A model generated the notes under the pieces. That model worked only from the letters and a program-made list of their open reading frames with translations, ran no database searches and was not told the origin of the DNA. Positions 163 to 43,716 of a DNA stretch of 64,000 nucleotides are shown piece by piece (positions within the stretch are counted from its first letter, which is position 1; each line of letters opens with the position of its first letter). The translations under genes were made by a program, and so were the position numbers. This DNA comes from Chelatococcus asaccharovorans (GTDB lineage: Bacteria > Pseudomonadota > Alphaproteobacteria > Rhizobiales > Beijerinckiaceae), in contig NZ_QJJK01000020.1 in NCBI RefSeq assembly GCF_003201475.1, forward strand, positions 1 to 64,000, read 5' to 3'.

Positions 163-170
163 TTATAACG

Positions 171-211
171 CCTCACCGATCGGGATGGCCGGGACAAGCC
201 CGGCCATGACG
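171..211. repeat. REP-like palindrome, copy 1 (GGCCGGG/CCCGGCC)
   Basis: This 41-bp sequence is the exact reverse complement of 333-373. Its core is ATGGCCGGG, a 5-nt spacer, then CCCGGCCAT, which can form a strong stem. With copies 2 and 3 it brackets the GIY-YIG gene. Palindromes of this type are widespread between genes in Rhizobiales and give rise to spurious 'MAGLVPAI' reading frames. Confidence 0.8.
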
Positions 212-332
212 GGGATTGTGCTGGAAAGGCCATTGGCCGCTCGGGCGAACGCGAGGCGCTCACACTTGCACCGCCATCGGCCGCGCTTGATCTCTGATCC
301 AATCGGACGGGCGGTCATGCCTTCGCTTTAAG

Positions 333-373
333 CGTCATGGCCGGGCTTGTCCCGGCCATCCCGATCGGTGAGG
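333..373. repeat. REP-like palindrome, copy 2, inverted, just before the GIY-YIG gene
   Basis: Exact inverted copy of 171-211. It ends 30 bp before the ATG of the GIY-YIG gene, so it lies in that gene's leader or promoter. A hairpin here could affect expression of the nuclease. Confidence 0.8.
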
Positions 374-403
374 CTGTACGAGACGTGCTTCGGGGGGAGC
401 CGA

Positions 404-691
404 ATGAAACAGCCTTGCGTCTACATTCTCGCGAGTCGTCCAGGGGGAGCGATCTATGTCGGCGTCACAAGCCATCTTGCTCGCCGCATTTGGGAACACA
501 GACAAGGTCTCGCAGACAGCCACACCAAGCGTTACGGCATCACTCGGCTCATCTACTACGAGCAGTACGATCGAATGATGGACGCGATCCAGCGTGAACG
601 CACCATGAAGCACTGGCCACGGGTTTGGAAGACGCGGCTGATCGCTTCCATGAATCCGGAATGGCGCGACCTCTACGATGACCTCGCGTAG
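404..691 (+). CDS. Small GIY-YIG nuclease-domain protein flanked by palindromes
   Basis: A 95-aa protein that is essentially one GIY-YIG domain. The motif halves are CVYILAS (about residues 5-11) and AIYVGVTSHLARRIWEHR (about 16-33), with the catalytic-type Arg in the RR pair, followed by a conserved YY.EQY segment and a WKxxLI tail typical of the UPF0213/YhbQ type. The ATG at 404 is preceded by a GGGGGGAG ribosome-binding site, so longer frames starting at 347 or 337 are rejected because they begin inside the upstream palindrome. GIY-YIG enzymes cut one DNA strand; small free-standing ones have no agreed role. No other gene is co-oriented with it. It lies between oppositely oriented copies of the same palindrome (333-373 and 699-734), a context that suggests a link between nuclease and repeat. 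Function as a repeat-mobilising enzyme is inference only. Confidence 0.85.
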   Translation: MKQPCVYILASRPGGAIYVGVTSHLARRIWEHRQGLADSHTKRYGITRLIYYEQYDRMMDAIQRERTMKHWPRVWKTRLIASMNPEWRDLYDDLA

Positions 692-698
692 AGCATTG

Positions 699-734
699 CC
701 GATCGGGATGGCCGGGACAAGCCCGGCCATGACG
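699..734. repeat. REP-like palindrome, copy 3, just after the GIY-YIG gene
   Basis: A 36-bp exact match to the inner part of copy 1 (from CCGATCGGG to CCATGACG), in opposite orientation to copy 2. It starts 7 bp after the GIY-YIG stop codon and ends 34 bp before the lepA stop codon, so it may also act as a terminator for both convergent genes. Confidence 0.8.
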
Positions 735-43693: not shown

Positions 43694-43716
43694 ATGGCCG
43701 GGCACTGCCCGGCCAT
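43694..43716. terminator. Hairpin after maeB, sequence related to the GIY-YIG palindrome
   Basis: ATGGCCGGGC, ACT, GCCCGGCCAT: perfect 10-bp arms, 27 bp after the maeB stop and 26 bp from the stop of the convergent doxX gene. Only a weak T tract follows. The arms share ATGGCCGGG...CCCGGCCAT with the repeats at 171-734. Confidence 0.65.

Follow-up and report, generated by a model that had tools for sequence, protein, structure and literature searches.

Inverted CGTC-tagged REP palindromes bracket a small GIY-YIG nuclease gene in Chelatococcus asaccharovorans and in other Pseudomonadota

The locus and its palindromes

The stretch of DNA analyzed here, which we refer to as the window, spans 64,000 nucleotides of the Chelatococcus asaccharovorans genome and carries on its plus strand, at positions 404–691, a gene for a GIY-YIG nuclease of 95 amino acids followed by a TAG stop codon, recognized through the Pfam family PF01541, an AlphaFold2 model, and a Foldseek search. 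The gene lies between two inverted copies of one palindrome, whose CGTC tags both point away from it: copy 2 (333–374, plus strand) is located about 30 bp ahead of the start codon, and copy 3 (699–734, minus strand) is inverted with respect to copy 2. Copy 1 (170–211, minus strand) has its CGTC tag at the right end and, when read on the minus strand, consists of CGTC, the 9-bp stem ATGGCCGGG, the loop CTTGT, the stem again, and CCCGATCGGTGAGGC. Copies 1 and 2, being inverted relative to each other, enclose a segment of 121 bp (212–332) that we call X. Outside the element is a neighboring ORF on the minus strand (769–2652) which, judging from its protein sequence, we take to be lepA, and that served as the anchor for comparing the same site in the genomes G001, G002, and G003.

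A preliminary description of this locus had reported a perfect inverted pair of 41 bp; the positions given for it hold, but the pair measures 42 bp (170–211 and 333–374). The 36-bp third copy that had been placed at 699–734 was confirmed, with 100% identity to 176–211, and the spacing was also found to be right: 30 bp separate copy 2, when bounded at 333–373, from the ATG, and 7 bp lie between the stop codon and copy 3. All three copies read CGTC, ATGGCCGGG, CTTGT, CCCGGCCAT, and CCC, and fold as a hairpin; single-stranded DNA folding of 171–211 yielded −11.7 kcal/mol, with a z-score of −3.4. As had been described, no further copy of this length occurs in the 64 kb. A search with its 23-nt core, allowing up to three mismatches, returned three matches, all of them at the unit, whereas shuffled sequences gave a mean of 0.01 matches and none of 100 shuffles reached three. 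The hairpin following maeB (43694–43716), which had been thought to have related arms, does have the ATGGCCGGG stem in common with the palindrome. The loop of this hairpin, however, is CACTG, and the CGTC tag and CC tail are missing; it may be an ordinary terminator or else a degenerate relative.

Over the whole 7.25-Mb genome, the core is present in 20 exact copies and in ten further copies with one to three mismatches, and only the three copies in the window adjoin any of the three GIY-YIG homologues found in this genome. These genome counts, with their dispersed copies, rule out that the palindrome is private to this gene. In the same genome, three palindromes (L001–L003: ATGGCCGGGCTTTGTCCCGGCCAT and a variant of it) have a loop of 6 nt and exceed the usual core by one base, and dispersed REP dimers (L008, L010, L012, L017, and L031) are found within a MITE-like frame of about 160 bp, with inverted ends similar to CTAGGACCAATCGACATTC...GAATGTCGATTGGTCCTAG.

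The palindrome as a CGTC-tagged REP

Bacterial REPs have been sorted into GTAG- and CGTC-tagged superfamilies by Di Nocera, De Gregorio and Rocco (2013, PMC3733652), in whose main text the CGTC REPs are described as having a CGTC tag (or TGTC or CCTC), a stem of 8–9 bp beginning with AT, a loop of 4–5 nt, and a CCA-like tail, as occurring mostly in inverted dimers, and as including dRS3 of Neisseria and RPE-4 and RPE-6 of Rickettsia. According to the same text a dedicated transposase is apparently lacking for these repeats and is named as future work, and the term GIY-YIG has no occurrence in the main text of that paper (PMC3733652).

On the basis of its sequence, the palindrome of the window is a CGTC-tagged REP in all but its tail. 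The CGTC tag opens all three copies, each on its own strand, and both the stem (ATGGCCGGG, 9 bp) and the loop (CTTGT, 5 nt) fall within the definition of the class, as does the dispersal over the genome, where many of the 30 copies with up to three mismatches form inverted pairs. The tail in the window is CCC, CCA being the commonest among the relatives shown.

The enzyme

The preliminary description had also named a GIY-YIG gene of 95 codons; the gene at 404–691 is intact, and its 95-residue product matches PF01541 with 47.8 bits against a cut-off of 22.6; this is the sole Pfam match of the protein, and a search of NCBIfam with it gave no match. Residues Y7, G15, Y18, G20, R28, H32, E65, K69, W71, and N84 are among those invariant in 53 homologues. 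We take Y7, Y18, R28, H32, E65, and N84 to be the catalytic positions of GIY-YIG nucleases, with a Tyr-Tyr-Arg-His spacing that presumably resembles that of I-TevI. The AlphaFold2 model of the protein has a mean pLDDT of 93.3, and the nearest solved fold identified by Foldseek is 1zg2, the UPF0213 protein BH0048 (E = 2.8e-4), followed by weaker neighbors, namely EF2693, Slx1, and the GIY-YIG domain of UvrC, with E-values between 0.02 and 0.4 for 1yd6, 7cq3, and others. In ten homologue pairs, dN/dS ranged from 0.02 to 0.13, which indicates purifying selection, and therefore that the protein, and not only the repeat, is under selection. The distribution is patchy, with 37 of 60 genomes positive, the window's own included, and broken gene copies are present in G001, where the gene is frameshifted, and in G002.

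Strong purifying selection, the structural likeness of the modeled protein to branched-DNA nucleases such as Slx1, and the conserved location of the unit in Bradyrhizobium and Rhodopseudomonas, discussed below, would also suit a domesticated host enzyme that resolves or trims REP cruciforms, hairpins, or REP RNA, and that is kept beside the REPs for autoregulation. We regard such a role as very improbable, since the patchy distribution (37/60), the broken copies in G001 and G002, the presence of multiple copies per genome, and the shifting locations fit a selfish element better.

Bracketing of homologues by inverted palindromes

Genome searches for homologues were carried out within Pseudomonadota. 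Each locus was given a bracketing score, for which the 300 bp preceding the gene were matched locally to the reverse-complemented 300 bp following it and the best match was taken, with a threshold of at least 18, and loci near contig ends were left out (8 of 80 named loci, 1 of 63 from relatives, and 2 of 89 from the phylum). The set from relatives was assembled from 30 loci, which include one paralogue encoded in the window's own genome, and from 33 matches chosen from the list (20 strong, 13 weak), while the phylum set comprised 29 loci and 60 stretches (52 strong, 8 weak). The strong part of the phylum set includes three homologues with an internal stop, and the protein of L188 is that of one named locus.

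Sixty-two of the 72 named homologue loci were bracketed, compared to 5 of 2160 random positions, and so were 31 of the 49 strong homologues of the window's genome and its relatives (7 of 1860 random positions). In the phylum-wide sample, which was picked among the matches listed best first and hence leans toward the stronger homologues, bracketing was seen for 52 of 79, against none of 1740 random positions. Unbracketed at this threshold were 10 of the 72, 18 of the 49, and 27 of the 79, respectively; L118, the broken copy of G002, was scored as unbracketed in the relatives' set despite palindromes flanking it on both sides. When named loci and relatives were pooled, 93 of 121 homologues were bracketed, whereas only 4 of 533 other ORFs, defined by length alone, and 1 of 124 short ORFs from the same loci were, with a Fisher p of about 1e-81, a value that is overstated because the loci are kin to each other (seven of them represent one conserved site) and the counts are thus not independent trials. 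Neither of the two outcomes that the preliminary description had named as refuting the pairing was observed: in all three sets most homologues are flanked on either side by inverted palindromes, and other ORFs of these loci seldom are. Coincidence and ordinary terminators, as explanations for the bracketing, are ruled out by the ORF control together with the tree test presented in the next section.

The unit recurs in Alphaproteobacteria and in other Pseudomonadota; in its architecture, the gene sits between two inverted REPs with the tag outward and the CC tail toward the gene. A finder based on the tag, applied to 207 distinct proteins, located a tagged palindrome on both sides of 133 and on at least one side of 184. 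In the nearest palindrome pair, the tags pointed outward at 37 of 72 loci and in the opposite direction at 8, and in a later set of 99 these numbers were 64 and 15. Both paralogues in the window's genome are bracketed by inverted copies of a different palindrome, GTCATCCCCGGCG...GGGAAGGGGATCCA. Among six records, of 33 matched, in a plasmid collection, four (A. lipoferum, S. meliloti, N. aromaticivorans, and Rhizobium CIAT894) show the homologue between inverted CGTC REPs, and the homologue of N. gonorrhoeae has dRS3-like repeats on either side; the Photobacterium record has no intact CGTC REP near the homologue.

A second, more distant GIY-YIG subfamily (L157, L160, L271, L274, and L275; also L154, L155, L162, and L163) is partly bracketed, in 5 of 13 cases in the relatives' set and 3 of 8 in the phylum set. 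Its flanking repeat is mostly of an unrelated type, CCTCATCCTGAGG...CCTCGAAGGATGAGG, which suggests that this subfamily and this repeat are another enzyme-repeat pair.

Palindrome class and protein lineage

Palindromes were classified by loop and length into class A (CTTG-type loop of 5 nt), class F (4-nt loop such as GAAG), class L (long), class C (TTGCGAG type), and class S (other short palindromes). When these labels were placed on a FastTree phylogeny of 207 homologues, 174 of which carried a class label, the class changed 25 times, compared to a mean of 73 and a minimum of 65 in 300 shuffles, on a tree built without careful support values. Protein lineage, in other words, matches palindrome class. 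When labels were exchanged only among genes of one genome, in the 11 genomes of mixed class, the number of changes never came down to 25 in 3000 shuffles (minimum 26), and this result rules out host phylogeny alone as the reason for the match.

At the level of genomes, a clear coupling between REPs and gene is seen for one REP class, class F, only. In the phylum test (66 genomes with the gene and 14 without, with labels that derive from part of each genome's homologues), class-F REPs were commoner in genomes with a class-F gene, both against other gene-bearing genomes (p = 9e-5) and against gene-less ones (p = 9e-5), and they were zero in 13 of the 14 genomes without the gene. No coupling between the number of class-A REPs and a class-A gene was seen in the phylum set (0.15 and 0.10). 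Among the 60 relatives, where labels cover part of the homologues, the values for class A were 0.16 when genomes carrying other GIY-YIG genes served as the comparison and 0.021 relative to genomes that lack a strong homologue, and they became 0.085 and 0.010, respectively, with the broken G001 gene counted. There are also REP-rich genomes in which the gene was not detected, namely G057, with 26 class-A REPs, and G088, with 77 class-F REPs.

Presence, absence, and inversion at single sites

Filled and unfilled sites, which the preliminary description had proposed to look for, do exist in relatives. At the lepA site, G000 and G001 share the arrangement REP-X-REP-GIY-REP, G003 has a solo REP between two flanks that both match, and G002 has neither the unit nor a solo REP; the solo REP of G003 may reflect either a loss by recombination between direct REPs or an older state. 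Window positions 170–365 align to the minus strand of the same-genus genome G001 with 87% identity, and positions 333–734 to its plus strand with 89%, and the 121-bp X segment (212–332) is inverted in G001 relative to the window. The unit is thus present or absent, and parts of it are inverted, at single sites. In Ancylobacter, L079 has REP-GIY-REP, and in the syntenic L074 a short spacer lies between the same two inverted REPs. In the S. meliloti gap between gltA and lpxB (L293, 1616–2474) we found a cluster of CGTC REPs with a full GIY-YIG gene and a REP-flanked remnant of the 3' end of another; in Sinorhizobium K101 the gap, upon inspection, contained REP-like sequence and no gene. Free REP dimers exist as well, along with derivatives of the unit that lack the gene or carry an internal deletion.

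In Azospirillum, A. lipoferum 4B has a REP dimer, the GIY-YIG gene, and a second REP dimer between sufB and sufC. Four relatives, out of 23 Azospirillum records with a match, were compared at this site and are unfilled: sufB and sufC are separated by 55–129 bp with no CGTC REPs in A. ramasamyi, A. oryzae, Azospirillum sp. B510, and A. thermophilum. The lack of a CGTC REP in these four unfilled sites suggests a joint arrival of REPs and gene. Such a finding bears on the possibility that the gene is a homing-type parasite, for which REPs that spread by other means are the target, so that the gene would be copied into a REP or REP dimer by break repair. GIY-YIG chemistry is used by homing nucleases, and the Ancylobacter site where the same two REPs occur with and without the gene, the solo REP of G003 as opposed to the filled unit, the excess of REPs over genes in the genome, and the weak tracking of the gene by class-A REP numbers are all in keeping with it. 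We nonetheless consider a parasite of this kind unlikely, given the REP-less Azospirillum sites and the fact that class-F REPs go with class-F genes and are missing from nearly all of the gene-less genomes.

A different situation was encountered in Magnetospirillum, where a unit of 510 bp recurs with 82–94% identity at places that do not match in their flanks and is bounded by a terminal inverted repeat (TIR) of about 25 bp (AGAGCCGTTGGGACTA...). Direct duplications of 9–10 bp, located inside terminator-like hairpins, accompany four of these units (L059, L066, L077, and L287); L282 has no clear duplication, L093 and L283 are truncated, and in L087 the REP-gene-REP part is inverted inside the TIR frame. 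One genome has three copies of the unit and a gene-less fourth place with a REP dimer. The Magnetospirillum-type TIR element (AGAGCCGTTGGGACTAAGTGTGTTT) was also seen in a terminator-like hairpin at L289, where it carries a REP dimer, the others (L059, L066, L077, and L287) carrying a REP-GIY-REP cassette. It could be argued from these units, with their TIR and duplications and with a REP dimer in place of the gene at the fourth site, as well as from the TIR-like frame around several dispersed dimers of the window's genome, that REP-gene-REP merely travels within TIR transposons or MITEs that a DDE transposase mobilizes, the REPs being hairpin insulators or terminators. This passenger role, however, appears quite improbable to us, as no such TIR was noticed, without a systematic search, at the window unit or at most of the other flanks inspected, and as it leaves unexplained both the match of class and lineage within genomes and the mostly outward tags. 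What the TIR and duplications of Magnetospirillum and the TIR-like frame of the window-genome dimers do suggest is that some of the movement may be due to other transposases.

In Bradyrhizobium and Rhodopseudomonas, finally, the unit is kept at one conserved site, next to genes that we presume to be murB and murC, and such conservation indicates that the unit is often inherited rather than jumping.

A candidate partner for the CGTC REPs

The same bracketing is found in many proteobacteria, which makes the GIY-YIG enzyme a strong candidate for the partner that the CGTC REPs are missing. The explanation that we favor, and that we hold to be reasonably probable, is a two-part, REPtron-like system in which CGTC REPs are combined with a dedicated small GIY-YIG nuclease that takes the place of RAYT. 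Under this explanation, the nuclease would recognize its cognate REP when the latter is extruded as a hairpin and might cut it at or beside the foot of the stem, after which the break would be repaired from another REP or from another REP-gene-REP copy. Repair of this kind could spread the gene between REP sites and keep the palindromes alike, and would leave behind solo REPs, dimers, and inversions. That the nuclease cuts the REP and drives movement is inferred. GIY-YIG enzymes hydrolyze DNA with no covalent intermediate, and for this reason a strand transfer similar to that of HUH enzymes is unlikely, and repair from a REP copy is the simplest route of spread. Arrival of a whole unit at a site without REPs, as in Azospirillum, would need a further step, which in Magnetospirillum is probably supplied by a transposase that uses the TIR.

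The element driven by a GIY-YIG enzyme that the preliminary description had put forward survives in part: the pairing of gene and palindrome is general, but the palindrome, rather than being private to the gene, belongs to a known class of REPs spread genome-wide, and some copies reside in TIR elements. More tentatively, and with somewhat more doubt than trust on our side, CGTC REPs including dRS3 of Neisseria and the RPEs of Rickettsia might make up a REP kingdom of their own, second and independent, in which short palindromes are multiplied by hydrolytic GIY-YIG hairpin nucleases through cut-and-copy. These would be mobile DNA of a type that a GIY-YIG enzyme drives outside introns, and the second subfamily would drive the unrelated repeats of the CCTCATCCTGAGG type.

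With the CGTC REPs as described in the main text of the 2013 paper (PMC3733652), the repeats studied here share the CGTC/TGTC tag, the stem of 8–9 bp that starts with AT, the loop of 4–5 nt, and the inverted dimers, and the CCA-type tail is the commonest among the relatives shown, with CCC in the window; the difference is that no dedicated enzyme is reported in that text, whereas here the REPs bracket a GIY-YIG gene. The parallel with REP/RAYT drawn in the preliminary description stands for layout, cognate specificity, and dimers. As in REP/RAYT systems (REPtrons and REPINs), inverted REPs flank the gene, each enzyme lineage has its cognate REP class, gene-less REP dimers are dispersed, and inheritance is often vertical. 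RAYT, however, is an HUH tyrosine transposase and its REPs carry a GTAG tag, while the enzyme of the window is a hydrolytic GIY-YIG protein and the tag is CGTC. Part of this RAYT background is also found in sections of PMC3733652. In the way it works, the unit would thus resemble a REP/RAYT REPtron without being one, as it has no HUH transposase and no GTAG tag.

Homing endonucleases of the I-TevI type resemble the window protein in their catalytic domain, with its conserved spacing of Tyr, Tyr, Arg, and His. Unlike them, this protein of 95 residues stands alone, has no separate DNA-binding domain, is flanked by REPs, and was not seen in an intron or intein; its ORF, next to lepA, is free-standing and has start and stop codons of its own, and as far as ORF and neighbors show, the unit is not an intron-encoded homing gene. 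The small UPF0213 GIY-YIG proteins, the N-terminal domain of UvrC, and Slx1 provide the solved folds nearest to the modeled protein, yet share about 19–29% identity with it, and are repair enzymes or proteins of unknown function; we know of no association of any of them with REPs.

A report linking GIY-YIG enzymes with REPs was not found among the matches listed in searches of open-access literature, a scope that leaves aside preprints and most subscription papers, so that an earlier report is possible. In PMC9465073, as far as the relevant passages show, both genes merely share one table, and PMC12306157 and PMC6006769 each cite the 2013 paper on CGTC REPs with no occurrence of GIY-YIG in their main text. 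The association between GIY-YIG genes and CGTC REPs is real, general, and, as far as searched, unreported.

REPs are common repeats of proteobacterial genomes, and an enzyme is known for the GTAG class. The existence of a lineage of small and intact nucleases inside CGTC REPs, with subclades that match REP classes, makes the question on the enzyme of these repeats raised in 2013 directly testable. If our explanation is true, it would add a second chemistry for REP-type mobile DNA, and it would provide a partner for the repeats of Neisseria and Rickettsia and a function for a small GIY-YIG family that has none assigned.
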